This document shows, piece after piece, positions 7,162 to 58,013 of a stretch of 64,000 nucleotides of DNA; the first letter of the stretch is position 1; each line of letters starts with the position of its first letter. The stretch covers positions 310,001-374,000 of the forward strand of contig NW_026705156.1 in assembly GCF_029867415.1 (NCBI RefSeq), given 5' to 3'. The notes under the pieces were generated by a model. The model ran no database searches. It saw only the letters and a program-made list of their open reading frames with translations, and had not been told where the DNA came from. Both the position numbers and the translations under genes were made by a program. The stretch comes from Vicia villosa (lineage: Eukaryota; Streptophyta; Magnoliopsida; Fabales; Fabaceae).

Positions 7162-7379
7162 CAGGGGCGGAGCCAAGGCCCAGCTAGCCCGGGCAGGCGC
7201 CTGGGCTCAACCCCTATTTTCTTTGTACTCTCCCAATTTATTAGTCGATTTTAAGATAGAATTAGGGGGAAAATTAGGGGCAAAATTAGTAAAAATAGGG
7301 TGTGAAAATTAAAACAGATGAATAATCAATGGTGTAAAGTTTTTGCCCAGGCTGCATAATATTTCTGACTCCGCCACTG
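7162..7379. mobile_element. hAT-type MITE, 218 bp, with 8-bp target duplication
   Basis: Left end CAGGGGCGGAGCCA and right end TGACTCCGCCACTG form a 14-bp inverted pair with two mismatches. The flanks at 7154-7161 and 7380-7387 are both CTACCACT, an exact 8-bp duplication diagnostic of hAT insertions. No coding frame. It sits within the Harbinger element, upstream of the transposase start, so it is the younger of the two. Confidence 0.95.
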
Positions 7380-7454
7380 CTACCACTTATGTCATTGTTT
7401 TCTCATTCTCATCTTATTCTTCTCTCATTTTTCTCTCATTTTTTACTCACTAAA

Positions 7455-8755
7455 ATGGATCCAGACAATTCAGATAATTACGATCAAGAATTTTGGGAGT
7501 TGATTGAAGAAGAATTTATGGACGATAGTGATGAAGAACAACAGCTTCAGAATGAACGTCAATCTGGAAGTTCCTCTCGGCCAAAGAGAAGGACAACGGT
7601 AGATCGAGATCGTGAAGAAGGGCACAATCGATTATTCAATGACTACTTCTCAGAAAATCCAGTATACACATATGTTCAATTCCAAAGAAGGTTCATAATG
7701 CATAGTCATGTATTTCTTCGAATTGTAGATGCACTTGGAAATCATGATGAATATTTCCATATGAGGTTCGATGTAATTGGTAAAATAGGTCTTTCACCAT
7801 TGCAGAAATGTACATCTTCTATTTGTACATTGGCGTATGGGTCTCCTGCTGACTCTGTAGACGATTATGTTCGAATCGGTGAAAGCACTTCAATTGAGTG
7901 CTTACAAAGATTCGTTCAGGGCGTGAATGCCGTATTTGGGGCTGAGTATTTGAGAAAGCCTAACAACACTGATGTTGAATATCTTTTACAAATGGGAGAG
8001 TCACGTGGCTTTCCAAGTATGTTGGGTTCCATTGATTGTATGCATTGGGAATGGAAAAATTATCCGGTTGCATGGAAAGGACAATATTGTTGAGTTGATC
8101 ATGGTAAGCCCACAATCATGCTTGAAGCAGTGGCATCACAAGACTTATGGATTTGGCATACTTTTTTTGGTATTGCAGGTTCAAACAATGACATTAATGT
8201 GTTAAAGCAATCCAACGTGTTTAACGATATTTTGGAAGGACATGCTCCCAATGTGCAATATACAATCAATGGGACACCATATAATATGGGGTATTATTTA
8301 GGAGATGGTATATATCCTGAGTGGGCTACATTTGTCACAACCATTTCAATGCCACAGGGAGAAAAGAAAAAATTATTTGCTCAACATCAAGAATCAGCTA
8401 GAAAAGATGTGGAGCGGGCATTTGGAGTGCTTCAATCTCGATTTGCAATTATACGTGACCCAACATGTACCTGGCATATGGAGACCCTCAAGCATACCAT
8501 ATATGCCTGCATCATATTGCACAACATGATTGTGGAAGACGAACGACATACATATGGAGGTAATTTGATTACTCTTATGATAATGTGAATAACAACAACT
8601 CAACAACTGAAACATTTAGCGGTCCTCATCTGAATCTTGCAACAAGACTACAAAGAAGAGCAAGTATTCGTGAAAAACAAGTTCATCGTCAACTTCAAGG
8701 AGATCTAGTCGAGTATGTTTGGGAACGTTTTGGACATGAATATGACGAAATTTAA
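7455..8755 (+). pseudogene. PIF/Harbinger DDE transposase, one stop and one frameshift
   Basis: I chose the ATG at 7455 (MDPDNSDNYDQEFW) because the codons from an upstream ATG at 7389 look like 5' UTR. An acidic N-terminus is followed by the conserved block LFNDYFSENPVY, the helical core, and the nuclease domain: first catalytic Asp in GSIDCMHWEW, second in FGIAGSNNDINVL, and the Glu in VERAFGVLQSRF. A TGA at 8091-8093 interrupts the frame just after WKGQY, with family-like sequence continuing in register; a CGA to TGA change, as from methylated-C deamination, would explain it. A one-base slip near 8560 moves the last 60 codons into another frame ending at TAA 8753-8755. About 430 codons, normal for the family. 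All three catalytic residues survive, but the gene cannot be read through. Confidence 0.9.
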
Positions 8756-9501: not shown

Positions 9502-12500
9502 TTTTTGGAGAATAGATAACTTTATTATTCCTCAAAAAACAGTAAAGTACAACCGATCCAAATGGATTTCGGTAACCAAAACAACAAGCTAACCAATTGA
9601 CAAATACATCCAGCTAACACACATCAATTAATATTGAGGGTTTCTATGCTAATATGGTTTCTAAGCTTTTCCACCATGTTGCATCTTACAACAATTATGT
9701 ACTGCAGTTGCTTAACACAATCTTCATCTGGTTGCTTCTTCTGGAAAATGAACTCATTTCGCACTCTGCATATCATATGCACAGTTTCTGCAATAGCATT
9801 CTTCAGAAGGAGTTGTCTCCATCCTTTCTTGTTTGTTTCTCTCATAATCCACTCCTTCTCAATGCTCCATTTTCCACAGTTCGTTCTATAACCAATCCAC
9901 TGCAAGATTGTTTCCCATATCCTCTTGGAATACCTGCACTCAAAATAAAGATGGTCTATTGTTTCGTCCTCTTGGCAAAAACAATAAACTTTATCTGTTA
10001 GAATACCAAACTTATTAAGTCTATCTTTAGTGGGTGTTTTCCTCATTAACACAAGACATAAATGGAATTTCACCTGAGGTCTAACATTATTATGGAAGAA
10101 AATTTTCTTCCATGGAACTTGGTCTCTATCATCTCTAATCAGGTGATATCTCCCCCTGGTATGAAACTTTTCAAGTTGCAGACTTTGTTCCCAGTCCTGA
10201 ATATAACCAATCACAGTTCTACTTTTCATCATTTGTTTGACAATCCATGAGCAATCTGCTGGGGGATTCCACTACATGATATCTCTACCTTTTATGTAAT
10301 ATGCATCAAGCCATTTCACCCATAGCTTGTCTTTTTTAGCTTGCACATTCCAAAGTAATTTAAGCATAAAAGCCTGGGACCAGTCCATCAAGGAAATAAT
10401 ACTGAGGCCTACAACATTTCTTGGGTCACAAACTTTCTCCCAAGCAACTGGAGCCCTTTTATTTCCCTCTAATTTCCCACTCCACAGGAACATCCTACAA
10501 ATGGCTTCTACCTTATGAATGAGTTTCTTAGGCAAAGGAAACACTTGCAGCCAATAAGCAGTCACAGAAAATAGAACACTCTTCAAAAGTTGGCTTCTTC
10601 CTGCAAAACTCAGCAAATCGGCAGTCCAATGATTGATTCTAGCCACAATCTTATCTACCAAAGGTTGACACTGATTAATGCTCAACTTCCTGCTAGATAA
10701 GGGAACACCAAGATACTTGAAAGGAAGTGATCCTTCATCAAACCCTGTGATTTTCAGAATAGCCTCTTTGTCCCTTTCCTTGGTACCTCCAAAGTACACT
10801 TTACACTTCATGGGGTTAGCTTGCAGCCCTGTAGAGTCAGAGAACAGTTTCAATATACTCATCATATGCTTTATGGACTGCTCATCACTTGTGGCAAATA
10901 ACATCAGATCATCTGCAAAACAAATGTTAGTGTTCTTTAATCTAGCACATTTGGGATGGAACTTGAATTCAGGATCATTGTGCAGCTTGGTCATGTATAT
11001 GTGCAAGTATTCCATTATCAGAACAAAAATTAATGGGGATATTGGATCCCCCTATCTGAGGCCCCTTCTAGCTTTAAGAATTCTACTAGTTTGGCCATTT
11101 ATTGTGTACCTATATGAAACTTTGTTAATATAAATCATCACCCAAGAAATTAACTCACTAGAGAAACTTAGTTCCTGCATAATCTGCTCCAAAGCGTTCT
11201 AATCCACAGTATCATAAGCTTTTTGAACATCCATTTGCATTGTACATCTAGAGGATAGATGTTTCCTGTTGTATCCCTTGATCAGCTCATGGGCTATGAT
11301 TATATTATCCTGAATACTCCTACCAGGCACAAAAGCTGATTGAATTTCATTCACCACTTCTTTAATCACTTTGCTCAATCTCCTAGTGAGAATCTTTGAT
11401 ATGATTTTATAAAGAGTGGAGCAACAAGCTATAGGTCTGAGCTCTTTAATTGTTTTCGCCTCCTTTATTTTTGGAATTAAGGTGACCAAGGCACAATTAA
11501 CAGCTGCATACATTCTTTTTTGGATAAAGAAATATTGAACAGCTTGTATGCCATCGGTCTTAACAATTTGCCATCTTCTTTTAAAAAATTTGGCACTAAA
11601 ACCATCCTCACCTGGAGCCTTGTGATCATCAATTCTCTTTAAAGCTAGCCAGATTTCCTCCTCTGTGACATGTTGAGTAAGGTTGTTAGCACTCTCGAAG
11701 GATAGCTGTTTTCCTGTTCTCAACACTTCAATATCAACATGGTTCAGGTAATTAGCAGTTGTACCAACTAGGATTCCATAAAACTGCATGATCTCTTCTT
11801 CAACTGCATTAAAATCATCTAACTTGTTACCTCTACTATCCTCTAGTCTAGTCAGGTTAGTTTGGCTATTTTCTCCTTCAGATTTGCTTAAAAGTATTTT
11901 TATTCCCATCTCCAAGCTGCAACCAAGCAATTTTAGATTTTTGCTGCAACACCTTCTCTTCTATGTCATTCTGCAAATCTATTTCCTCAGATAAATGCTT
12001 AACTTTCCTAATAAGACCCTTATTAAAAAGATCCTCATTAAGGCTATTCTGAGTTTCCTCAAGCTCCATCCTACACTCTTGGATTCTCTTCATTCTTTGG
12101 TTGATGTTTCTGTTCAATCCATTCAGGATAGGTTGTAATCTTTTCAGTTTGTGCCATATTTTGTATTGTGGTCTCCCTTGTATATGCTGTGTCCAGCTGT
12201 TTGTGACAAAATCATCATACCCAGGTGCATTAGTACTACAATTGAGGAATTTGAATATATGTTTCTTTCTATCATGCTTGTTATCTTTGGCATCCATTCT
12301 GAGTCTCAGAGGGGAATGATCTAAGATAAAAGGATTCAGAACATCAATCTCACTAGGGAATTGCAAATTCCAGTCAGTTTGCAAATAGCTCTATCAATTC
12401 TTCAATAAATCATATTCACAGTATGTTTATTTGACCAAGTGAAGTGATTCCCTACCGTTTCAAGCTCAGTTAACCCAACATCCTTCATCATACCTTCTAA

Positions 12501-32687: not shown

Positions 32688-33132
32688 TGTGAGATATTGG
32701 ATTGAAATCTAGTATGGTCGAAGGGTAGCTTCTTGGTTCGACAGAATTAAGCATGAAGTCGAAGATTGTTCACATACTTGTGTCGAAGATGTTAGGGTTG
32801 TTAGCATGTTAAATTAGGTTTAATGTTTAAACCCTAATTTGTTAAGTTAGCTTGTTTATTAAGTTGGCTTGTGTAATGGGTCTTGTGGAAAAAGTCTATT
32901 AGTTAGTATGTTAGGTTTTATTATAAATAGCATACTAGTCTCTCATCATTGTACACAACAAATCCTAATTTAGGGTGAGAGAGGTTATTTGTTATTCTTG
33001 TAAACTTGTAATCTTGTTTTCTAAAAGAAAGTAAAAGAATAACAGTTATAACCAATTCTCGTGTTCTTCTTCTTCCTTGTCCTTTATCCCTCTCTTGTAT
33101 TATACTTTGTTCTTGGCATTGAATTCACAACA
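32688..33132 (+). repeat. Copia LTR, 445 bp (5' LTR of the gag-pol piece that follows)
   Basis: Begins TGTGAGATATTGG, ends ATTCACAACA; a second copy of equal length lies at 41687-42131. TATAAATAG near 32921 is the likely TATA box, and TGTCGAAGAT-type words upstream are repeated. Directly after it comes AATTGGTGCGGTGAG, the position of the primer-binding site. Confidence 0.92.
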
Positions 33133-33157
33133 AATTGGTGCGGTGAGCGTAGAGAAG

Positions 33158-35145
33158 ATGTCTTCAACAAAGTATGAGATTGAAAATTTCACCGGAGTGA
33201 ATGATTTCGGTCTGTGGCACTTGAAGATGAAAGCCCTACTGGTTCAGCAGGGTTGTTTAGAAGCGTTGAAAGGAGAGACAACCATGAATGCTGTATTAAC
33301 GACAGCGGAGAAGACGACTATGATCGAGAAAGCACACAATGCAATTTTATTGAGCCTTGGTAATAAGGTTCTCTGTCAGGTATCAAAGGAGACGACGACA
33401 TCAGGGTTATGGGTGAAACTTGAAAGTTTGTACATAACCAAATCGCTGGTAAATCGACTCCACCTGAAGCAAGCTTTGTATTCATTCAAGATGATTGAAG
33501 ACAAAGTGTTGGCTGAGCAGTTGGATATGTTCAACAAGCTAATTCTTGATCTTGAAAATATTGATGTGAAGATCGATGATGAAGATCAAGCGCTGTTACT
33601 ATTGTGCGCTTTGCCTCGATCACATGCTCACTTCAAAGAAACTATCATGTATGGAAGGGAGTCCCCGACCTTTGAAGAAGTTCAATCAGCCTTGTATTCT
33701 AAGGACTTGAACGAACGAAAGGAGCATAAACCTTCGACTGTTGGTGAAGGTTTGGCCGTTAAAGGAAAGTTCTTGCGAAAGGATGGTAAGTTCGACAAGA
33801 AGAAGGGAAAAGGCCAGTCGAAGTCTTATAGTGGCAAAGCATCCGACATTCGATGCTATCATTTAAGAAGGAGGGTCGTACAAGAAAGGTGTGCCCTGAA
33901 CGCCTGAAAGATCATGGAGGTAAGGATAATGGCAATGCAGCCATTGTTCAGATGATTTTGAATCATCTGATGTTCTGGTGGTTTCAAGCAGTGACTCGAG
34001 AAGAGAGTGGATTATGGATTCAAGTTGCACTTGGAACATGACTCCAAACAAAGACTTGTTCGAGGAATCATGTGATCAAGATGGTGGATCAGTATTGCTG
34101 GGAAACAACAAAGCTTGCAAGATTACAGGTGTTGGATCTGTGAGATTCAAGCTCCATGATGAGTCAATAAGGTTGTTGACTGAAGTCAGGTATGTTCCTG
34201 ATTTGAATAGAAATCTGCTTTCTCTTGGTGAATTCGACAAGAAAGGATATGTTTTCCAAGGAGAGAAAAGTATCTTAAGAGTCATGAAGGGGTCGAAGGA
34301 AGTCTTGAGAGGCGTGAAGAAACAAGGCTTGTATACCCTTGAGGCTGAAGTTGTAAGTGGTTCGACAAATGTTGCATCCACGAAACCTTTGTCGAGGACA
34401 GAAATTCGGCACATGAGATTGGGCCATGTCAGTGAAAGGGGTCTGGTCGAATTAGGGAAATAAAATCTGCTTGGTGGAGACAAAGTTGAAAAGCTGAAGT
34501 TTTGTGAACCCTGTGTACTTGGAAAATGTTGCAGAGTGAAGTTCAACAAAGGCAAACAAAGAACACATGGATCCCTTGATTACATCCATGCTGATCTTTG
34601 GGGGCCTGCAAGGTGTCCATCACATTCAGGAGCAAGGTATTTTCTATCCATAGTTGATGATTATTCTAGAAAATTATGGGTATTCATCCAGAAGACTAAG
34701 GATGAAACTTTTGAGAATTTCAAAAGTTGGAAGACTGTAGTTGAAAATGAGACTGGCAGGAAGGTCAAGAGGTTGAGAACCGATAATGGTCTTGAATTTT
34801 GCAATGAGGCGTTCGATAGTTTTTGTGCTGTCTCTAGTATTGCAAGGCACAGAACTACTGCAGGTACTCCACAGAAAAATAGTTTGGCTTAAAGGTTTAA
34901 TCGAACTATTTTGGAGAGAGTCAGATGCATGTTGACTAGTGCTGAGTTAAAGAAGGTGTTCTGGGCTGAGGCTGTTTCGACAGCAACATATCTGATAAAC
35001 AGATATCCTTCGACAACGTTAGATATGAAGACACCTGAAGAAGTTTGGTCGGGACATCCACCAGATCTCGACAAACTGAGAGTATTTGGCTGCGTAGCCT
35101 ATGCTCACATTAGGCAAGACAAAGTCGAATCTAGAGCTCTGAAAT
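33158..35145 (+). pseudogene. Copia gag, protease and integrase, truncated before RT
   Basis: gag starts at the ATG at 33158 (MSSTKYEIENFTGVNDFGLW) and carries a UBN2-type capsid domain to about 33820. A one-base loss near 33860 destroys the CCHC knuckle (the frame jumps at CYH to KKEGRTRKVCPER). The next frame (33978 on) holds the protease-like WIMDSSCTWNMTP, where the usual Gly of the DSG triad is Ser, then GAG-pre-integrase (HMRLGHVSERGLVELGK), a stop at 34461, and the integrase core: Asp in HADLWGPA, Asp in RTDNGLEF; the position of the catalytic Glu is a TAA stop (34890-34892). It breaks off at about 35145, inside the integrase C-terminus, joining host flank DNA. RT and RNase H of this unit are absent. 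Confidence 0.92.
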
Positions 35146-42131: not shown

Positions 42132-42818
42132 AATTCAATAGTAAGTAGTCATTTAAACTAGACAACCAGAAAAAATATATAATAATTGGCAAAACACACA
42201 GGACCAAGTAATTAATTATAGATATGAAGATTGAAATCGATGTAAAACTATCAAAGAAGATACATTTTAGTTAGTCCATTAGGGTTTTTTGAGATGATCG
42301 TTGATATAAATCATTTCGACCATGACAATGATCATAAAATCATTTTCCATTTTTAAATTAAGGGGATTCAAAACTATTAGGAAAAGAAATAATATGGTGA
42401 AACAATTTTGGCAATCTAAGTCAACTTTAGTATAATCTCTATAAGGAGATGGAAGAACAAACAAAGCATTATTATTTGATAGATTTGCTACTCCAAGAAT
42501 TCCAACCCTTGGTGATTCAAAAAATAGAAATCCTTCTAAAACAAACAATTCAAACATGACCAAGTAAAACACTATATTGCTACAAAATTCGTCAATTGAC
42601 TCAAAATTCTTATTTGAATGTTAGGAGAAGAGATAACATAACCGTGTTAAATAATAAACAACCAACTTTATACACAACTCATGAAAAACCCATATCAATA
42701 TTGAAATAAAAAATACCAAAATTTATACACAACTCATGAAAAACCTATATCAATATAGAATTAAAAAATACCAAAAATTACCTTGGAAGAAGGAAGATCG
42801 TCTATAAAAAATCTATTA
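42132..42818. repeat. Segmental duplication, copy A, third block, with an unidentified ORF pair
   Basis: Matches 55996-56688. On the minus strand a 97-codon frame (42572-42279) begins MFYLVMFELFVLEGFLFFES and ends IYINDHLKKP; the same 97-codon frame is open in copy B (56433-56140). On the plus strand the B copy also has an 81-codon frame, which in A has two stops. I cannot recognise either product and cannot say which strand, if any, was coding. The 3' part contains a duplicated ACACAACTCATGAAAAACC word. Confidence 0.5.
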
Positions 42819-43600
42819 GGTCTGTTTAGTTCAAATGAGGGGGAGGGGAAGGGAGGGATTTTAATAGAGGGAAGGGGAGGGGAGGGATTTTTTTTAATCA
42901 GATAAGTGTTTGGTTCAAAATAAGAGAGGGGAGGGGAATGGAGGAATTTTAATTAAAATATGTTTGGTTCAGAAGTGGAGGGGAGAGGTTTTATTAATAA
43001 ATTACATTTTTATCCTTATGATCTTATAAAAGTGATTTGATATTCAAATATGAAAAATTCATACATAATATTTTGGTAGTAAAATTTTTAATATTGAGAG
43101 ACTAAAATGTTATAATTTAGCATAACGTTAATAAATTGAGTACACTTGATTCCGATTATAACTCTTCGACACAGATGAAACTATATACTAATAACAATTT
43201 TTAAATCGTGATGAATCATCTAACCAAACAAATACATATATAATTTATTATTAAAATTAATAATTTAAATTTTTAATAAACTAAATAAACAAAAAATAAA
43301 ATAAAGTGAATGATTAAAACTTGATATAAAAGAAAATATAATAGGATAAATAATAAAATTAGAAGAAAACATGAACATAAACAAATATTAAAAGAACTAG
43401 TATATAGACCGGTGTGAGGCGCGGGTTAAATATTTTCTAAGTAAAAAATTTTATTTTAAAAATACTTATAATTTATAAATTTTGTAAGATTATTATTGTA
43501 TAGATAAAATGTCATTGTTATTAATAATATATATAAAAAAATTTAATTAAAAAATTTTTATTTTAAAAATACTTATAATTTACAATTTAAAATGTAAAAA

Positions 43601-43632
<32 letters not shown>

Positions 43633-43989
43633 TGTATTAATTAAAATTTTTTTAACCTATTACCTATAAACCAATATTTTATATAGATAATACAAAATAA
43701 CAAATAGATATTTAAGGATAAAAATTTGTTTTGTTTTTCATAATTAAATATCTAATTATGTATATTTTAATTTGTTTTGTTTTCCAGAAATATTATTAAT
43801 GTAAGCAATTATAAATTGTACACTCCTTTAAAACTGAATTATATATAAAAATGTAATTGATTTAGTTGAACAATTTATATAATTTAATTTACTATTTAAA
43901 TTATAATTAATTATACTATACAAATTAACCATAATTTTGAATCTAATGTAAACTAAATATTTAATGAAACAATTGGGTAAAAAAAAATA

Positions 43990-44783
43990 ATTGTGTAAGA
44001 AATTATACATTAAAATTACAACAATCCAAAGTGTGGTCTTGAGGAAAGCCCCGATAACGATAAGAAATTATAACAATCTAAAGTGTCGTCTTGAGGAAAG
44101 CACCATTAAAATTACAATGACAATAGAGATTTGTGAATCCATCACCCAGTCAATCTACAACTCAAACCTATGACATACTCCAGTCTTGGTGAATTTAACC
44201 TGCAACATTTGTAACAATGCGCGTTACACATTTATTACAACAAAATGTTCTGTCATCCTCTCTCAAACCAAATTCTTGCCTTGTAAAGGGGATACTCCAT
44301 AAGCTGAACAATAACTCTCAATATAGATGTCTACATCATTGTGCTGCCCTGGATACGTTAACTCCACATTCTTACTCGTGTCAAACAACTTGTTATCCAT
44401 CTTAAAGTGCACCATAACCTCTTCACATTGCTTCACCAGTGGCATCACAGTATGGAAAAAGGAAAAAATACAATTCTATACCTTGTAAATATAATGGATT
44501 TTATGATCTACAATGAAACTCAATGTTTGCTTACCGCTTCTATGAAATTCCGATTTGTGAAGTGTTGTTCCTTTTTGATTTGTACATGATCCAATTACAG
44601 CCAGGCACCTAATCAAAATTCAGAAATATCCAAGCAAACCGAAATATCCATTCTACCACAACAACAATTTGGACCGAGCCTGCATCACAAAGTCAGAACT
44701 GACTCAATGAACCAATCTGCTCTTGCTATTTGGACCGAACCTGCATCACAAAGTCAGAACTGATTCAATAAACCAATCTACAC
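43990..44783 (-). other. Unidentified captured or spacer DNA in Helitron 1
   Basis: An open minus-strand stretch at 44448-44263 encodes VKQCEEVMVHFKMDNKLFDT followed by SKNVELTYPGQHNDVDIYIE, more protein-like in composition than its surroundings, but I do not recognise it. A 61-bp-period duplication (ATTTGGACCGA at 44667 and 44728) lies between it and the E3 piece. Could be another captured exon. Confidence 0.35.
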
Positions 44784-45623
44784 CTGAAGAAGTGCAATGA
44801 TACATGGAAGACACCAGCAAATAGCGATACCAATTATTATGTCATAAGCATTCAACTAAAATAAGTAAATATCAGTTGACCTGCCAAAAGATTAAGAAAT
44901 CGAAATGAAAACATGTTTGAACAATTTGAATGAGATAGTGAAAGAGGACAAACCAGTAAAGCTGAGGAGAATCTTGGGATAAAGTTTTACCACCAGCTGA
45001 TAACCAGTAGAATCCAATAATCCACCAAATAAATGACAACATAGTATTGGCTGATTCCAAATGCTTTGCAACACTGCCGAGAAAAATGGCAATATAAAAC
45101 ATTGAAAGCTTGTTAAACATTGATAGCTTCCATATAGGCTCCGCCTGAAAAACTTCATCTGATACCAATGCTTTGAAATCAGCATCACTAATCCTCTAAT
45201 ATACAAAACAAAAGCAAGTTATCAGAACATATCCAACAGATACAGAACTCAATATTCGTCGATTTTATAAGAACAAAAAGGAGAGGGGATAGTCACTATT
45301 GGTTTCATTTATTATTGGTCATATTAATTTCTTTATTTAAATATACAACTTATCAAAAGACAATTAAACCCAATTCGTTGACCGAGTCAACAAAATGGAA
45401 TAGGATAAAATCATCAGTTCTTATATACCTTCTTTTGCTCAGACACAGCTTTGAAACGCCAAAACAAACTCTCAACATGGTTGTCTTTAAGTTCGTATCC
45501 AAGCTGAAACAATAGAGAGTAACTCATAAAACTGAAAAACTATTCCAAAGACCGTTAGCCACAATAAAAATGTATGTATACCTCTTCAAGTCGCTTTCTC
45601 AGAGCATGGCGTCCGCTGCATCA
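44784..45623 (-). pseudogene. Captured chimera: 2-isopropylmalate synthase exons joined to RING-type E3 ligase exons
   Basis: Minus strand, in order. SGRHALRKRLEE (about 45617-45582) ends at a GT donor. Exon 45503-45429 encodes LGYELKDNHVESLFWRFKAV then SEQKK, with CAG acceptor and GT donor, phase 0. The next exon starts at 45195 after TATTAG and encodes RISDADFKALVSDEVFQAEP then IWKL. These match the region linking catalytic and regulatory domains of plant 2-isopropylmalate synthase (leucine synthesis, plastid); the closely related homocitrate synthase is an alternative. From 45072 the same open frame encodes AKHLESANTM, SFIWWIIGFYW, SAGGKTLSQDSPQLYW, a membrane segment of RING-type E3 ligases like Arabidopsis At4g11680, ending at a GT donor. 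A further E3 piece, GIAICWCLPCIIALL, lies at 44832-44784. The IPMS start is truncated, and neither protein's catalytic part is present. Confidence 0.88.
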
Positions 45624-46641
45624 TTAGGAGCACGAGTTTTTGTTTGGAGATAGAGAGGAACAACAGTGAGGATTTGATTGGATTGATCTTTACCTATAAC
45701 CTGCTGAATTTTAGAACCAAATACTTCAACCTTAAAAAACATAACAAAAGCGGTTTCAATTTATAAAAAATAAACAAATCATTTTTGAAATCAAAAACCC
45801 TAACAACTAAAGGACAACCAAGAACAACAGGTAAACAAATCGATTTCAAAATAAAAAACCCTAACAACTGTTCTCGCTCCGATTTCGATCCATGCTTTTC
45901 TCTCTCCTCTTCGGCTCCAAGTGCATGCAACTTTGTTGACGCGCATTTACGCTATTGTTCATCCATGGTGGTAGTAGTAGTAGTAGTAGTTAGCTTCTCT
46001 GATCAACAAAGAGAACAAACAACAAATCATGATAATCCGAATACAAATTGGAGAAGATGTTGTTTTTTTAGTGGAAAAGATGATGTTTTGAGTGGAGAAG
46101 ATGACATTGAAGATGAGATGAATTAGATTGGGAGAAGAGAAAGCCGTGTGAAGTTTTATTGAGGTGGTGAGGTGGTGGTGATGGTGTTCATCGTGTTCAT
46201 GTTCCCACATCATGGTTGTGGTTGAAGTTGGAGGGTGAGGGTGGTTTGGTTTGTGAAGAGAAATGATAGAAGTTGTGGTGAGGGGTTTTTGATGTGGGTG
46301 TGATTTGGAGAGGGAAAAGAGGTGAAATTGATTGTTTCTTCCTCTTCCCCAAATCGATTTTGATGACGGTGGTTTTGGTTGTTTCCAAGGCACAAAATCG
46401 ATTTCTCAATGGTCCAAGCAGCAAATACTTTGCATATGAAGAGGAAGGGGGATGTTTCAGATTCCCAAAATTGAATAATGATAACAAATAAATATAACTA
46501 AAAATAAAAAAAATAAAAAGATAAAATATAAAGAAGTAATTGAAGTTACTATAAATAGAATGAGAAGAAATTGTGAGAATGCATAAGGGAGTGACACTTG
46601 GCAAACTTGCCAAAGTACTCCTTTTGCTTTATTATATTAAA
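45624..46641 (-). other. Helitron 1 segment with GTA/CCA-rich low-complexity DNA
   Basis: Contains a (GTA)n tract near 45968-45992, G-rich GGTGG words near 46160-46260, and frames on both strands that reflect this composition (Val or His runs). No family recognised. Possibly UTR or promoter of a captured gene. Confidence 0.35.
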
Positions 46642-46734
46642 CTAGTAACAAATCTGTGCGTCCGCACGGGTTCTGGTACGGGACGCGCATTTATTTCAAA
46701 TGTATATTTTTTAATGGAAAAATGTATGGTATAT

Positions 46735-47045
46735 GTTAAAAAATAATAATTGAATGTATAGAAAAAGTCTGGTACCCGTGAAAAAATAATAATTGAATGT
46801 ATAGGAAAGTGTCTGGTACCCGTGAAAAATAATAATTGAATGTAAGAAAAGTGTCTGGTACCCGTGAAAAAATAATAATTGAATGTATAGAAAAATGTCT
46901 GGTACCCGTGGAAAAATAATAATTGAATGTATAGAAAAATGTCTGGTACCCGTGAAAAAATAATAATCGAATGTATAGAAAAATATCTGGTACCCGTAAA
47001 AAAAATTAATTGAATGTATAGAAAAATGTCTGGTACCCGTAAAAA
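46735..47045. repeat. Minisatellite, about seven copies of a 42-45-bp unit
   Basis: AATAATAATTGAATGTATAG followed by AAAAATGTCTGGTACCCGTG repeats with single-base length variation. Lies next to the 3' end of Helitron 2. The long minus-strand frame through it is an artefact. Confidence 0.93.
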
Positions 47046-47369
47046 CATTTAAATCAATACATTTTTTAATACAAAATATAATTTTGTTATAAAATATGTG
47101 AATAATAGAAGATAAAAAAATGTAATAAAAAATAGAAGCTAAAAAAATTATGAATGAAAAAATATGAGAAAAATTAAAGAGAAATCTTATGAATATAAAA
47201 AAGAAAATAATATTTGAAAATAAGAATAAAAGATAGAAAGAAATATTAACTCATTAGGAGTAGAAGAATATTATTTGAATTTGAAATTTATGAAGAAAGA
47301 GAAAATTGAGATAAAATATTTGTGTTTTCAAAGAAAGATTTAAAATATTAATTAAATATATAATTAATA

Positions 47370-47605
47370 AAAAATATTTTGATCAGTAACTTCATGTCCG
47401 GTTAATAATCAATATTTTGATCAATAACTTCATGTTCCCGTCTACAAATATTATTTTGATCAATAACTTCATGTCCTCGTGTACCTTAAAAAATATTTTG
47501 ATCAGTAACTTCATGTCCCGTGTTAATAATCAATATTTTGATCAGTAATTTCATGTCCCGTTAATAATCAATATTTTGATCAATAACTTCATGTTCCCGT
47601 GTACA
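47370..47605. repeat. Second minisatellite of Helitron 2, about six units
   Basis: ATATTTTGATCAGTAACTTC followed by ATGTCCCGTG recurs with spacers AATAATCA or TACAAAT; unit length varies between about 35 and 55 bases. Confidence 0.88.
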
Positions 47606-48395
47606 AAAGATTTAGTAAAATATAATCTTATTTTTTAATCACATTTTATACACTAAAGCTAACTTAAAAAATATTATTAATTTCATTTTAGAAGCATAAA
47701 TTTTCTTATATATTATTTTCTTTTTAAAATTTAAAATTGTAAAACATATTTATTAAAAATGGTCTCTTATAAAATCATTTACTTAAATGAGATTGTTAGC
47801 TAAGTTTATTCTGTCACAAAAACTATTGGCCTTAAAATCAGTTACTACCAAACTCATTAAATGAATATTATAATAGTGAAAGATAATTTTTTTTAAAAAA
47901 AAACAATCAAATTGATCAAATTAATTGATATTTATTATCTTTTTTGGCTCATATAGAATTGTCCAATCACACTTAATATTTGTACAATCTTTCTATATAT
48001 TATCTTTTTTCTTTAAAGCTTAGTACTTATAATAATCATAAATATCAAATCTATTAATATTAAATTAAAAAAATCAAACAATAATCATCCAATATGATCA
48101 TAATCACATTGTACGATAAAGGGGGTAAAAAGTTTCTAAAGAAATAATATATTATTTTCATAGCAGTTTGAAAAAAGTAGTAAGTAAAGTAAGGAAATAG
48201 GTCTTAGTGCATTAATTGATATCAATCTCAAAAGATGTGCATGGAAAAAACAGTGTGAATTTCCAACAATTAAATGAAGAAAGAAAAATTTTAGAAAATG
48301 AAAAGAAAGCTTTTAAGTCCATCCAAGTGGAAGCTTATATGATAAGCAGGATATTTTGGTTTTTTCCAGACCATTCAATTTTCTTATATTGTAGA

Positions 48396-49996
48396 TTACC
48401 TTTTATGCTTTTATGATTCATTCATTTAAGATTATAAACAACAACACTAACAACCTAAAAATATAGTAAGAATGCCATATCTTATGATCTAAATAAGAAA
48501 ATCAAAATATTTTTCCCAAAGTAGTTATTAAATCTAAAAGATATTTAAAAAAAAAAATGTATCGAATTTTTAATTTTTAAAAGAAAGACATCAATAAAAT
48601 TATATGACCAAAAATAATAGGAAATAGGTAAAAATAAAAGAAGTTGAAAAAAGTTAAATAAAACACTAAATTACTTAAATAATTCAATTTTATATTTGTT
48701 TAAATGTATTAATATTCTACACAATAATCGGTTTAGTTAAATCAATGTGGTTGCCAAAACCAATGTTTTTAATCAAGACTACTAATTAACTTTATGCAAC
48801 TCCTGCTGCATTATAGTATTTGTCCAACAACTCCATTGTTGATTTAGGACAAGATGTCTCACACGTACGGTCTCGAGCCAGCTCTGTCTACTAAAAGTAC
48901 TGTGTTTGCCTATCACACTGCACAAGATTTCTAATATATTCTAGTTTAATGTAACTGTTTCCCAAGCTGTTCACCATTATAGCATAAGTTTAAATTTACT
49001 GTATTCTTGCTTCATTTGTGCAATGTTTTATTGAAGTAGGTTCCTTGCTCAAATATATATAAAATATTATTCTTTTTTGCAGATGTTCTGGTCTAGATAT
49101 ATAAGTTTATTTGGTTAAAAACATTTACAAATATTATTCATCTATCTAATATTTTTATTCTGAAATTATTTTTAATTTAAAATACAGTAATTTATTGATG
49201 TCTTTCTTTAAAAATTAAAAATTTGATACAATTTTATTTTTATTTTAAAAATGTCTTTCATTTAAATATTTATTTTTAATTAACCTATATATTTATCTTT
49301 GACTATTTTTTTTCCTGTTTTACAATTAAATAAAAAATATTTATATTTTATTTGAATTTCAAAATCAATTTACTGACATATCAACGGTCCACACCATAAC
49401 CAATTAAGATTCTTTATAATGACAAAATAATTTTCTAAGATAGAAAATAATTGGATAAATTTGAAACTAATTTAAAAAGATTGTATTATTATTATTATTA
49501 TTATTATTACTATTTATGTGCTTCATTATTATTGATCAACATCATTAAAAATATTAATATCGATAAAAATCTTAACTTAACAAATAAACTCTAAAATGTT
49601 TATGGTAGCAAAAATTTTAATTGGAAAATTCCATATTTCCAAAAAAAAATATTAATTGGAAAATCCCATATTCCAAAAAATATCAATAATAAATTGATAA
49701 GTCTTCAATTTCATCCATTTATAGCCAATGACACAATCTACAAATAATTATTCTTTAAGCATATCATTTTCCATTGTAGCTCTTAATGTACCATCACACT
49801 ATAAAAAGATTATTGTTAAAAGACTATTGTTATAATGAAAATGAACGAAAAAAATACATAGGCAAGAGATAGTATGGACTTGCAAGAGACACCGTAGATT
49901 TGACTTGCACGATACAACACAGTATATTATGACCTATTCTACAATCTACCATATATATTATATTAAATAGTTTTTATAATACGATATGATAGACTA

Positions 49997-50040
<44 letters not shown>

Positions 50041-50048
50041 ATATATAT

Positions 50049-50116
<68 letters not shown>

Positions 50117-50226
50117 TATTTTAACATGATACGATGACATTTAGTAAAATTCATATTTTTTTATTAAAACACATTTTAACAACTACTAATTTTGATTTGT
50201 TTTATTATAATGATGATGACAATAAT

Positions 50227-50289
<63 letters not shown>

Positions 50290-51214
50290 GGACATTAAAT
50301 TAAAATAAATAATAGATTTTTTTCAATCTCAATATTTAAAAAAATTACAAAAATAGTCACATTACTTCATAACTATAAAATTTTAAAAATATATAACAAA
50401 TTCCAATAAAGAAGAGAGAACAACTAATAAAAATAAAAATAAATAAAAATAATGTTAAGAAATTGTCTATGTTATTTAACTTTTTTCGTTTTTTTATGAG
50501 TAACCTGAAAATCCAAAACAAATGAAAAAGATATTAAAACAATTTAAAAAAAAAGTGACATGAATATCAAAAATAGAAAAAGAAGATTTATAATTTATGG
50601 AAGAAATAGATACGAGATTTCCTTTGATATTATCATTGATGCTGATATTTCCTACCACTCCATAAACATCATTATAATTGTCATTTTGGTGTGACATTTT
50701 TGACTTAATGTAAACTTGCACACATATTTCAATCCCTTTTCAAATTGATACATCGATTATGTAAAACAAAATAAATAATTATTATTCAATCTAAATAAAG
50801 TATCAGTAACAAATAACAACCAGTCTTAAATAGAAAAAAATTGCACATATTTTTTTTTTAAAAACAATATAAACACAATAAAGAATATTGATCAGAATTT
50901 ATTTTCATCAAAAATAATTAAATAAAGAGATTTGCAGAATTTTTTTTCTAAGATTGTGATCCTCAAATATGTAAAACACAAAACTAACAAAAAAAGTAAA
51001 ATAAAAAGAAGTATAAAAAATTACCTAAGGAGATAGAAATAGAATCTAGATCCAAAATGTAATCAGCTATTTTTTTAGATCTGAGTCAAAAAATATAAGA
51101 CAAACAAAAATATGAGTTTCAATCTATGATACAACAAATAACTTTTAAATTTGGAAACAAAGAAAAAACACAATCAAATTATTCAAGTAGTAAAACGCTC
51201 TTTGTCTTTCTGCT
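48396..51214 (-). other. Helitron 1 body, AT-rich, no gene recognised
   Basis: Microsatellites at 49484-49510 (TTA)n, 49999-50115 (AT)n with interruptions, and 50233-50288 (TAA)n. A more complex stretch at 48780-49060 (GGACAAGATGTCTCACACGT nearby) is of gene-like base composition but has no frame I can support. A minus-strand 75-codon frame (50721-50494) is not recognised. Confidence 0.5.
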
Positions 51215-51459
51215 TCAGAACTGATTGGAGGACCACGCCTTGTTCCTGAAAGAGAAATATTACACTATTTACTGAACTTTAGTCATGAACAAAGAACAAA
51301 GGTTCACCCAAAAACAATGGTTTAAAGAAAAAAATTATTCAAAAAGCAAGATTATAAAACTGAAAGAAGCAAAATACCTTCCATAGGTTAGATGACCTTC
51401 AACAACAACCTCATCAGAGTGAGGAACCACCATCTCAGAGTCCTTTCCATATTTTGTTG
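51215..51459 (-). pseudogene. Third possible captured gene fragment (3' end, unidentified)
   Basis: Minus strand. An exon-like segment 51459-51378 lies between TTATGCAG and GTATTTTG and reads TKYGKDSEMVVPHSDEVVVE then GHLTYG. A second segment begins at 51245 after TTTCTCTTTCAG. Joining them keeps the phase (82 bases, AG|G) and ends after NKAWSSNQF at a TGA. Good splice sites at three edges and a non-repetitive composition make capture likely. I do not recognise the protein. Confidence 0.45.
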
Positions 51460-52197
51460 CTGCATAAAAGAATTAAAAAAATCAGATCTGATGATGCAGA
51501 TTATTGCTTATTTCTATTTGATTTCAAAACTAAAGAGAGGAAGAAGGAAGAAGAAGAAAGGTGAAGAAAAGATTTAAAAAAGAATATTTGTGTTTCCAAG
51601 GAAAAGTTATTTTCTTATATTTGTCTTTCCAAGGAAAATATTAAAAAGACATTTGACAAAGCATGGATAATGGAAACGTGATCATGAGTAGAAAGGGAAA
51701 AAAAAAGGAAGACCAAATACTGCAATTGAGATAAGGTGTCCACGTGGAAGCATACAAAAGCAGAGGGTTATTTTAGTATTTTCCAGAGCATGTTCTTTTC
51801 TTATATTGTAGATGATTATAAAAAAAAAGAAATGATTATGATTTATATTAAGTAAAAAAATTTGAAAATAATTTGAAGGTAGATAATAGTTATAATAAGT
51901 TGATGAAAACAATCGAGAAAAATCGAAAAAAAGAAAAATAGAAACACGAGAGAAAATAATAATTTTAAAATAATAAAATAAAACAGAGAATATTTTAGTA
52001 AATATTAATAATTTATAAAATATAATAATCACCTTCCCTCCCCTTCCTTCCCCTCCGAATCCCCCTGATTTGGGGGGACGCAAAAAGTGTGATTTGGAGG
52101 GATTTTGCTCCCTTCTCCTCCCCTCCTAAAAATTGAACCAAATACATTTTATTATAAATATCCCCTCCCCTCCATCTACCTCGAACCAAACACACCC

Positions 52198-52790
52198 TAT
52201 ATCGGAGAATTAATAGCCTGATTAAAACTCCAACCAAGGTTCCTTAAGAAAAATTGATCATAAATCAAAAGGCAAGGGAAAACTATCTTAAAGAGCTGAT
52301 CTCACTCGAACTTAGAAAAAAGATAACAAAGAATTCAATTTATACAAAAGATGAAATGAACTATGCATGAAAAAGCCAAAGTTCAAGGTCAAGGCGAAAA
52401 GGAAATATCTTTTTGTTTAGATGTTAAATTTTCTTGCTAAGTCATTTTTTCCTGTTTGTCCCAAGGTAAAACCAATTGGTGAAGATGATATAAAATGCCT
52501 GACCCCTAATGCAACAATTTATAAGAATGTACAAACAATACTTGAGATTGTTTTTAGAGATGTCTTAGACATCATATTTAGAGGTTCAAAATCAACAACT
52601 GATGATGATGTCAAACAACAAATGGAAAAATTTAAAGGACAAGTCTAGTACGAAAATGTTGTTGTCTTGAGTGAATTTCCATAGCTAGGCATTGATGGAT
52701 TTGAGGCATATAATGAGCTCTACGAGTATTCAGTGTTGTAATTATACTTAAATGAGGGCTCGAAAAGCTTTTTGGATGAGATGAAAGTTG
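52198..52790 (+). repeat. Segmental duplication, copy A, last block, with a decayed ORF
   Basis: Matches 56690-57260. The plus strand shows an open piece at 52421-52648 (PIGEDDIKCLTPNATIYKNV, then ILEIVFRDVLDIIFRGSKST) followed in the same frame, after stops, by LGIDGFEAYNELYEY. The B copy (about 56900-57230) retains the same words with different stops. It looks like an old pseudogene, but I cannot name the family. Confidence 0.6.
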
Positions 52791-52799
52791 TTCCTCTTA

Positions 52800-53142
52800 T
52801 GCCCCTTGGACCCTTTTTCTCCCTTTCTCCTTTTTAGCCCTTGGACCCTTTTTATCTGTTATTCCTCTTATGCCCTCATTTACTCACCTCACTATTACTA
52901 CTATGCCCTTACCATCTCTACATTCCAAATACTTATATTTAATTATTATAATCCAAATTAATTCAACTAAATTATTAATAATAATTCTAAAGAATTATAA
53001 GCTAATTATTAAAACTAATCATTCTCATCAGCATCTAAACCACACTACTAACCCAACAAACATCCACATAATTCCCACAATATTCATAATAAATCATAGG
53101 TAATTAATTAAATAAATAATTCTAAGATTTCGGGGTGTTACA
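52800..53142 (-). repeat. LTR fragment, chromovirus (Tekay)-like, minus strand, at the A/B junction
   Basis: On the minus strand it begins TGTAACACCCCGAAATCTTA at 53142, the usual start of Tekay/Del-type LTRs, and fades near 52800 beside a CCCTTGGACCC duplication. It lies exactly between the end of copy A and the start of copy B. Confidence 0.6.
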
Positions 53143-54932: not shown

Positions 54933-56139
54933 TTTAATTTATTCTTTGGTATTTATTCTTTTTCATTGTTATATATTTTTAAATTAAATGGTACTATAAT
55001 ATTTTACCAATGTTTTCAATCAAATTTTGATAAATCCAAAATGCTCACCAACATATATTTTTCATGTTTTCATTAGATTTATTTTTCACTTAAATCATCA
55101 TAGTAATTTTACCTAAACCATCATATTATAGAATACTATTATATAATTCTAATATTAAAGTTCTAAAAACTATTTTGATAGATGGCAAAAAAAACAATCA
55201 ACCTGAAATAAATCTTACTTAAAAAAATCTTATTAAAAATATAGTTATTCACTTGTATCCCATTCATAAATTAATGGTGGCTGATATTAAAGTGACGGCA
55301 TTCTATAATATGGATTAGGAGTGGACAAGAAACTGTGCCCGTCCGAAAACTGAGTAATCTGTTCCAAACTTAATATAAATGGATGAGTCAAATTGAATAT
55401 ACCGACCCGTGGGTGAACAAAGTAGGAACATCTTGGTTATACAGTAGAAATGAAGTTCAATCTTATTACAGAGCCTAAGAAGCACGAAGGTTGCAAGAAA
55501 AGGAAGAAAATAGTTTGGATGTTCAATTCATTGCAGAAGGAAATTCAATTTTCATAAACATACCAAAATGATTACACAGTAGAAATGAAGTTCAATGTTT
55601 ACTTTCTTTTCTTTTTCTTTCTTTTAGTTTAGGAAAAGTAATATTTTTGTTTGCGCGGTTACGTAGTGATAAATTGTCAATACCATTCAAATATTATTCA
55701 ATAGACAACTCTTACATTATTGATATAAGACTAGTTATATAAGAAAATACTAAACACATTTAATCAATATACAAACAAATAAAACATTATTATCATAATC
55801 TTCTTGGTTAGTTCTTAACATTTCCATTAACAATATATATTTTTTTCTTCTACGTTCAATAAAAATAAAAAGCAAATAAACAAAAAATATGTTTGCAATT
55901 AAAAACAAAAATCTATATATCATTATTTTATTTTTATTTCTTCAATTTCGACTTTAGCAAAAATAAAAACTTGTATATGAAATAAAACAAAAAAATTTGA
56001 TAGTCCTCAGAAATAGTCATTTAAACTAGACAAAAAAACATAATAGCTGGCAAAACACATGGGACCAAGTAATTAATTATAGATATGACAATTGAAATCC
56101 ATTTAAAACTATAAAAGAAGGTACATTTTAGTTAGTCCA

Positions 56140-56433
56140 TTAGGGGTTCTTGAGATAATCGTTGATATAGATCATTTCGGCCATGACAATGACCATAAAA
56201 TCACTTTCCATTTTTAAATTAAGCGGAATCAAAACTATTAGGAAAAGAAATAATATGGTGAAACAATTTTGGCAATCTAAGTCAACTTTAGTAGAATCTT
56301 TACAAGGAGTAGGAAGAACCAACAAAGCAATATTATTTGATAGATTTGCTACTCCAAGAATTTCAACCCTTGGTGAATTAAAAAATGGAAATCCTTCTAA
56401 CACTGACAACTTATACATCACCAAGTAAAACAC
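56140..56433 (-). CDS. Unidentified 97-codon ORF, paralogue of the one at 42279-42572
   Basis: Starts MFYLVMYKLSVLEGFPFFNS and ends IYINDYLKNP. The A and B copies have the same length and end at the same place despite many substitutions. The product is hydrophobic with a central segment of Leu/Ile/Phe (TILFLFLIVLIPLN) that could span a membrane. No family recognised. The complementary strand is also open in B (56183-56428), so the conservation may reflect constraint on the other strand or chance. Confidence 0.25.
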   Translation of the reverse strand: MFYLVMYKLSVLEGFPFFNSPRVEILGVANLSNNIALLVLPTPCKDSTKVDLDCQNCFTILFLFLIVLIPLNLKMESDFMVIVMAEMIYINDYLKNP

Positions 56434-57260
56434 TAAATTGCTACAAAATTCGTCAATTGACTCAAAATTCTTATTTGAATGTTAAGAGAAGAGATAACAT
56501 AACCGTGTTAAATAATAAACAACCAACTTTATACACAACTCATGAAAACCCCATAACAACATAGAAATAAAAAATACCAAAATTTATACACAACTCATGA
56601 AGAACCTATATCAATATAGAATTAAAAAATACCAAAAATCACCTTGGAAGAAGGAAGGTCGTCTATAAAAGATCTATTAGGGATATTGGAGAATCAATAG
56701 CCTGATTAAAACTCCAACCAAGGTTCCTTAAGGAAAATTGATAATAAATCAATAGGCAAGGGGAAACCATCTAGAAGAGGTGATCTCACTCGAACTTAGA
56801 AAAAAGACAACAAAGAATTAAATTTATACAAAAGATGAAATGAACTATGCATGAAAAAGCCAAAGTTCAATGTCTAGGCAAAAAGGAAATATATTTTTGT
56901 TTAGATGTTAAAAATTATTGCTAAGTCATTTTGTCCTGTTTGTCCCAAGGTAAAACCAATTGGTGAAGATGATATAAAATTCTTGACCCCTAATGCAACA
57001 ACTAAGAATGTACAAAGAATATACGAAATTGTTTCTAGAGATGTCTTAGACATCCTATATAGAGGTTTATAATCAACAACTGATGATGATGTCACCCAAC
57101 AAACGGAAAAATTTGAAGGGCAAGTCTAGTATGAAAATGTTGCAGCCTTGAGTGAGTTTCCATAGCTAGGCATTGATGGATTTGAGGCATATCATGTGCT
57201 CTACGAGTATTTAGTGTTGTAATTATACTTAAATGAGGACTCGAAAAGATTTTTTGGATG

Positions 57261-58013
57261 AGATAGAAGTTGTTCTAGTCGTGATTCAAGGCCTAAATGA
57301 GGACTCTGATAACTTTATGGTTGAGATAGACGTTGTTCTAGCCGGAACTCAATGCCCAACAAGTTGCGATCAGACTTAGTACAATTTCCACAAGAGCGAT
57401 AACGATAAAATATTTATCTAGCGACATATATAAGAATTAAAGGATGTCGACATCACCTTTTTAACGTTTAGGTAATGATGTCACTCTTTATAGCAAGTAT
57501 CCACAAAATGGTTTTAGCACTGTAAATCTATAATGACATTTCCTAGAAGGACATTTGATTAGAATAATTATAAGGAGTTGGATTGTTAGATTTTATGGTA
57601 AAGGATCTTTTAACATCTAACCTTTCTAATAACTTCCTAGAGCAAAATATTCTAGGTCCTTTAAACCCTAGAACCCTATTATAAAATCCAAACAAAGATA
57701 TCCCATAAAGATACACACTATTTTAACCCTAATTACCTCTCCCTTTTGACAGTCACTAACTTCAGTATCAGAGTGTTTGCAGGTACTCTCTGCCACTAAG
57801 AGCACCAAGATGCAATATTAAATACCATGTTTTTCCATTTGGTCCAAGTTCACAACCTCACTTGTGAACCTCGCGGGCCTTCTCAAGATCATATGACTTC
57901 ATTTATGGGTATACTCTTCAACATATCCATCACATTGATCAACATCCAGAATAGTAAATGATGGCAAGCTGTCATATTATAATTGATTAGCATTTTTGAA
58001 GTCTTTTTTAGTA
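57261..58013 (+). other. Gypsy LTR-like stretch, no gene
   Basis: 57600-57850 has the order AACCCTAGAACCC, TATTATAAAAT (TATA-like), a leader with CTCTCCCTTTTGACAGTC, then CAGAGTGTTTGCAGGTACTC, which resembles the end of plant gypsy LTRs. The rest is unassigned. Limits are uncertain. Confidence 0.4.

Follow-up and report, generated by a model that had tools for sequence, protein, structure and literature searches.

Is the gene-bearing segment that begins at position 43397 of a 64,000-bp stretch of the Vicia villosa genome one mobile element or more than one? The stretch analyzed here (hereafter the window; NCBI RefSeq assembly GCF_029867415.1, contig NW_026705156.1, positions 310,001 to 374,000, or C233:310001-374000 in our notation) had been read in a first-pass annotation, made from the letters alone, as holding a single non-autonomous Helitron at 43397-51812 with fragments of two or three host genes. 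Helitrons start with TC after a host A, end in CTRR followed by T, and insert between A and T without target duplication; they also carry a hairpin about 10 to 12 nt before the 3' end and form families that share ends and differ in their interiors. We are highly confident that two nested Helitrons stand at this place, H1 inside H2, and that H2, which holds the gene fragments, moved into an element with terminal inverted repeats (TIRs). Both are genuine Helitron DNA, of a type already known and with details that are new.

Evidence for two nested Helitrons

H2 lies on the minus strand and has a net length of 3,248 bp: its first three bases, TCA, stand at 51815-51813 and are severed from the rest, which runs from 46641 to 43397. 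H1, a second non-autonomous Helitron on the same strand (46642-51812, 5,171 bp), sits between an A and a T three bases inside the H2 5' end, so that TCA after an A stands outside the H1 5' end and TTTAATATAATAAAGC stands downstream of the H1 CTAG. Both termini named in the first-pass annotation, TCTACAATATAAGAAAA at 51812 to 51796 of the minus strand and CTAG at 43397-43400, were found where it placed them. They do not belong to one element, however: the former is the 5' end of the nested H1 and the latter the 3' end of H2, whose outer right end is at 51815, as judged from the empty site described below.

A search with 43397-45400, in which 40 of the 652 candidates were scored, gave at least three sibling places (C1:40.55 Mb, C6:30.06 Mb, and C884) with 83 to 96% identity. 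H2 was found at four places in all, and the three siblings have both ends and the same fragments and hold no H1 at that spot. The C1 sibling (C1:40550743-40556244) aligned to 43397-46641 and the C6 sibling to most of it, without about 220 bp near 46075-46293; neither matched 48396-51812. In both, the ends read A|TCA and CTAG|T, the C1 copy starting with A|TCATTTAATATAATAAAGC. The same beginning assigns the three severed bases in the window to H2, and these bases are missing from the empty site. The C884 sibling aligned initially only up to window position 45421. We rejected the idea that this copy is truncated, as both ends are present and split by about 31 kb: its 5' part at C884:71846 begins with an uninterrupted A|TCATTTAAT, and its 3' end is CTAG|T. 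The 31 kb (C884:39500-70630) lie inside the copy at about window position 45420. Altogether, the H2 5' end follows a host A as A|TCATTTAAT in C1 and C884, while in C6 and the window an inserted Helitron divides it; CTAG|T closes four of four copies. In C6, the intruder is a 1,050-bp Helitron without a BLAST match to H1, which stands at the H1 site and again leaves a TCA stub. Kimura two-parameter (K2P) divergence among the H2 copies was 0.030 to 0.043, C884 being compared in part. The window copy lacks 0.77 to 2.16 kb that are present in the three siblings; the ATTT microhomology at the breakpoint (44240-44245) suggests a deletion.

A search with 50130-51812 gave loci different from those found with 43397-45400. 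The segment C1:143056353-143061546 matched 46641-51813 in a single piece (96.3%), with A and T as flanks. The match of C558 to H1 falls into two parts, 46627-48602 and 48593-51071, and does not include the 5' end. The H1 5' end follows a host A, as A|TCTACAAT, and CTAG|T is present at its 3' end in the window, at C1:143 Mb, and in C558. Since H2 copies without H1 exist in C1 and C6 and H1 stands alone elsewhere, we regard the two as separate Helitrons, and since the TCA stub separates the host A from the H1 5' end, H1 was inserted after H2.

In start (TC after A), end (CTRR|T), duplication-free insertion between A and T, and membership of a family with shared ends, the DNA thus agrees with what defines Helitrons. 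An encoded RepHel, the mark of an autonomous Helitron, was not found: both H1 and H2 lack a long open frame, and none above 179 codons overlaps 43397-51815, although individual frames were not scanned for RepHel. The 5' motif is not rare in the window (with up to three mismatches, the 17-base end was expected 1.6 times and found twice, at 51812 and 48395, exact in both cases), and the evidence is therefore the sibling copies and the empty site rather than the motif.

Landing site and probable empty allele

A search with 51816-53100 led to C3:55031114-55032408 (97%). When the joined window flanks were compared with C3:55029801-55032408, they were 97.8% identical over 2,611 bp and free of gaps at the join 43396|51816; four of four other fetched copies of the TIR element were likewise continuous across this point. 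The empty site and these copies set the limits of the insertion at exactly 43397-51815 (8,419 bp), between A and T and without target duplication, a manner of insertion that the first-pass annotation had already proposed. The chromosome 3 locus is likely, though not proved, to be the allelic empty site in the same assembly; a second pair of places, about 131 kb off on C233 and about 133 kb off on C3, supports this. According to the assembly report (PMC10659084), about one-third of the bases of Vvill1.0 (Vicia villosa) are in unplaced scaffolds. Such scaffolds can be second haplotypes, which proved relevant here.

The landing site is a multicopy TIR element with halves at 42821-43396 and 51816-52198 (outer limits approximate), inverted TIR-like termini (GGTCTGTTTAGTTC / GAACCAAACACACCC), and uninterrupted copies elsewhere. 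Comparison of the window with itself showed that its surroundings, 42143-42820 and 52199-52793, are repeated at 56011-56681 and 56683-57275, about 91% alike and with nothing between. Because this paralogous locus joins without any intervening DNA, 42821-52198 is extra at the first copy. The window thus contains two paralogous copies, about 91% alike, with the TIR element in just one of them.

Weighing of the alternatives

That 43397-51812 is a single gene-capturing Helitron of 8.4 kb, as first annotated, now has scarcely any probability, even though both termini obey the Helitron rules and nothing of the stretch is present at the empty site. Against it, H1 is absent from the H2 copies in C1 and C6 and stands alone elsewhere between A and T, the 5' end of the C884 copy is uninterrupted, and the empty site moves the right end to 51815. 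The annotation had asked for other copies with both of its termini; none was found that combines the H1 5' end with the H2 3' end, and the termini are shared within H2 and within H1. In kind it was right: a non-autonomous, gene-capturing Helitron with sibling copies that share its ends is present. Very improbable, too, is that H1 bypassed its own 3' end and brought H2 along as one unit. The H1 hairpin is decayed in the window copy, and Helraiser is a documented case of read-through at Helitron 3' ends (PMC4778049); however, a unit that starts at the H1 5' end would leave no TCA stub, whereas the stub is present here and missing from the empty site, and some H2 copies have a 5' end of their own. 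Such read-through is contradicted at this locus and is possible for future moves. The chance that the outer TIRs near 42821 and 52198 bound a Pack-MULE-like mobile unit is practically negligible. These repeats do flank everything, and the paralogous 56011-57275 is without the whole of 42821-52198, but the probable allele and four of four fetched TIR copies lack the gene-bearing part, so we take the TIR element as a landing site only.

Several observations weigh against H1 nested in H2, or against parts of that account. The 5' stub has a length of just three bases and is assigned to H2 on the strength of the siblings and the empty site. The allele was called from the 97.8% identity and the spacing of about 131 and 133 kb, not from phased data, and the distance downstream to the paralogous copy differs, being 4.9 kb on C233 and about 55 kb on C3. 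The C884 copy is known from its two pieces. In the window, neither 3' hairpin is intact. Finally, the donor of the 2-isopropylmalate synthase (IPMS) fragment in H2 is not fixed, its exons being closer to a copy at C2:2.71 Mb and its intron 2 closer to a C7 pseudogene.

Nested H1 and H2 have a practical consequence: annotation by termini can fuse two Helitrons into one false element. The case is unusually complete: the probable empty allele, unnested siblings, free H1, and likely parent of a captured RING-gene fragment are all found in one assembly, so that the succession of events can be reconstructed to single-base precision.

Composite make-up of H1

H1 is itself made of two parts, both on the minus strand. 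Its 5' portion (48396-51812, with the 5' end at 51812) comes from one Helitron, and sequence comparison identified the remainder (46642-48395) as an inner Helitron with its 5' end at 48395 and its 3' end closing H1. Four relatives of the former (C1:9.56 Mb, C3:54.9 Mb, C233:230 kb, and C3:66.8 Mb, the second and third of which may be alleles of each other) run uninterrupted through 48396 and lack the inner 5' end, and for this reason we describe H1 as a composite, its outer 5' part joined to an inner Helitron that closes the unit. A separate young insertion of 48395-46642 into one large element was considered and rejected, as C1:143056353-143061546 holds 46641-51813 whole. The make-up of H1 is good evidence that nested Helitrons can become composites in this genome, and it indicates that a nested composite like the present one has moved before.

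Two minisatellites lie in H1, with units of about 43 bp (46714-47048) and about 40 bp (47359-47607). The third exon-like pair of the first-pass annotation is probably that near 51190-51470. It is present, but it lies in H1 and has no meaningful match: there was none in Pfam and just two weak ones in PDB. A 62-bp piece of H1 (51262-51323) matches two loci, L017 and L018, both of which also match the third fragment of H2, about 1.8 kb away there.

Captured gene fragments in H2

All identified gene fragments are in H2 and none in H1. The IPMS fragment (45125-45649, minus strand) has exons at 45582-45615, 45429-45503, and 45125-45195 and two introns; the exons are bounded by AG and GT, save where the last one is cut. 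The peptide of exons 2 and 3 matched the PDB 2-isopropylmalate synthase 6e1j (E 1.2e-6), which we take to be the Brassica juncea enzyme. Against the NCBIfam IPMS models its best E value was 1.2e-8, under the whole-protein cut-offs because the query is a 49-residue piece, and a Pfam search with it gave no meaningful match. Compared with the C2:2.71 Mb copy, in which these exons are open (1.2 kb was fetched), 34 of 34, 71 of 75, and 63 of 71 nucleotides were identical. A frameshift in the first exon was considered and rejected, since this comparison gives the frame SGRHALRKRLEE without a shift. Also rejected as donor was C7:2.95 Mb (L016, 90%), a pseudogene with stops that is farther in exons a and b.

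The RING E3 ligase gene fragment (44787-45117, minus strand) consists of exon 2 (44954-45073) and a piece of exon 3 (44787-44837). It matched C2:149.86 Mb at 94%, with 117 of 120 nucleotides of exon 2 identical, and that gene is likely the parent as judged by this similarity. A later exon of the gene carries a RING-like C-X2-C...C-X-H motif, from which we presume it to encode a RING E3 ligase. The RING exons of the first-pass annotation are thus exons of such a gene but do not include the RING finger itself, which H2 lacks. Its view that introns were retained and that the IPMS and RING-gene exons are oriented as the element held good, and since the introns are kept, capture was at the DNA level.

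A third captured-looking fragment (44297-44586, minus strand), to which no family was assigned, was 90 to 92% identical to three other loci and gave nothing above the cut-off in Pfam or NCBIfam and nothing in PDB. An open frame on the minus strand (44872-45195) fuses an IPMS exon to a RING-gene exon. In two of the four copies, C1 and C6, it is broken by stops, so there is no sign of selection on it, and a function of the captured fragments is unsupported by these sequences.

3' hairpins and mobility

Both 3' hairpins of the window copy are decayed. That of H2 (43409-43426, minus strand) has a folding energy of -0.8 kcal/mol, compared with -9.4 and -9.8 in two sibling versions, and that of H1 (46654-46671, minus strand) has -2.5 kcal/mol, compared with -10.5 in a sibling version. 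Owing to this decay, the copy in the window has probably lost its mobility or would tend to read through; for Helraiser, loss of the hairpin led to less transposition and more read-through (PMC4778049). H1 and H2 would each have moved by rolling-circle transposition, with a putative RepHel helper acting in trans. As H1 is upstream of H2, a read-through move that started at the H1 5' end and went past its decayed hairpin would take the H2 gene fragments along.

The H2 family and a recurrent insertion site

The 24-base H2 5' end was found at 204 places in the genome with at most two mismatches, while a reversed-pattern control gave 0. At seven of the places we noticed an H2-family 5' end paired with a 3' end, and six were fetched as elements. 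All six begin with A|TCATT and end with CTAG|T, and they share with H2 the outer 125 to 230 bp at the 5' end and 140 to 170 bp at the 3' end; the 3' figure was measured with the C6 copy, and the window 3' end matches the same places at 85 to 86%. Beyond the shared ends, only two short, weaker matches to H2 (157 and 39 bp) were seen. None of the six matched the five donor loci, and the H2 cargo is thus not shared by them. The seventh place (L036, C1:28762601-28769100, fetched in part) holds a tandem array of five units, about 1,281 bp in length and about 99.7% identical to one another, each of which begins exactly at an H2-family 5' TC; a simple scan of this stretch found no CTRR 3' end with a hairpin. 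The units could come from repeated aborted rolling-circle moves or from plain tandem duplication.

We also looked for CTAG immediately before TTTAATATAATAAAGCAAAAGG, the junction left by a Helitron that lands three bases inside a family member. It was exact at four of the eight listed places: the window, C6, C743, and C416. Each has a host A, the TCA stub, a Helitron starting with TC, and CTAG|TTTAAT. The inserts are unlike one another, being H1 in the window, the 1,050-bp element in C6, an H2-family element in C743, and an element with an H1-like 5' end in C416. In the last case the 5' end lies 4,770 bp upstream of the CTAG; it was chosen as the Helitron-like one among three ATCATC matches in 9.7 kb, and the pairing is presumed. 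The host flanks also differ among all four. Those in the window and C6 are H2 copies, and those in C743 and C416 match H2 just in the first 150 to 230 bp of the approximately 260 to 320 bp fetched. We count these as four separate insertions.

A search of the first 17 bases with an exact gapped pattern detected seven junctions, five of them at the TCA|TTT site (four with the exact family sequence, which alone were fetched and checked, and one variant) and the other two at a TTTAA|TAT-like site. With this one exact pattern, no junction was found at the outer boundary or at the remaining A|T sites. A rough calculation, which assumes 100,000 Helitrons and about 1.9e8 AT sites (both unmeasured), gave an expectation of about 0.05 insertions at 208 such sites in this orientation, local AT-richness being uncontrolled. 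We put at about even the chance that other Helitrons land preferentially at the A|T three bases inside the family 5' terminus. If they do, each landing would put a further 5' end immediately upstream of the resident cargo and 3' end, and nesting at 5' ends would act as a ratchet by which cargo from different Helitrons is combined. The site offers a countable test of whether Helitrons prefer each other's 5' ends, a preference that could help to explain Helitrons with fragments of several genes.

Comparison with known Helitrons

Nested Helitrons, multiple termini, and stepwise capture have been described in maize (Dong et al. 2011, PMC3288121). Like H1 and H2, the maize elements have several gene fragments per element and extra internal termini, for which nesting was proposed as the source, and one captured fragment lies 25 bp from a 5' terminus. 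In the Vicia case, by contrast, one genome contains H2 copies without nesting, the nested element on its own, and a probable empty allele, and a whole Helitron stands 3 bp inside a 5' end, an arrangement repeated at this dinucleotide in four members of the family. Here the inner element keeps its CTAG intact, whereas 99 of 100 sampled maize internal 3' ends lack CTAG, and the cargo is different. At maize r1 (Du et al. 2008, PMC2267711), two unlike Helitrons likewise abut head to tail, with the CTAG of one joined to the next; there the junction is CTAG|TC and the order of insertion open, whereas here the TCA stub makes the upstream element the second to arrive. Helraiser/Helibat shares the TC...CTAG ends and the 3' hairpin terminator, and its description (PMC4778049) gives read-through as the model for capturing downstream DNA. 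Helraiser is a reconstructed active bat element with its own transposase, in contrast to H1 and H2, which lack a long frame and whose hairpins are decayed in the window. In our literature search, mainly of open-access papers, we met no report of Helitrons with captured genes in Vicia, and none of repeated insertion at a site three bases inside a Helitron.

Other elements in the window

Pieces of a long terminal repeat (LTR) retrotransposon, with a Copia-type gag and an integrase core, lie at 33035-34892. A transposase at 7338-8588, which we take to be Harbinger/PIF-like, matched Pfam Plant_tran (second piece, E 1.1e-76) and has one stop inside. On the minus strand, a reverse transcriptase domain (10272-11051) was found within a broken stretch (9624-12390) that is presumably LINE-like.

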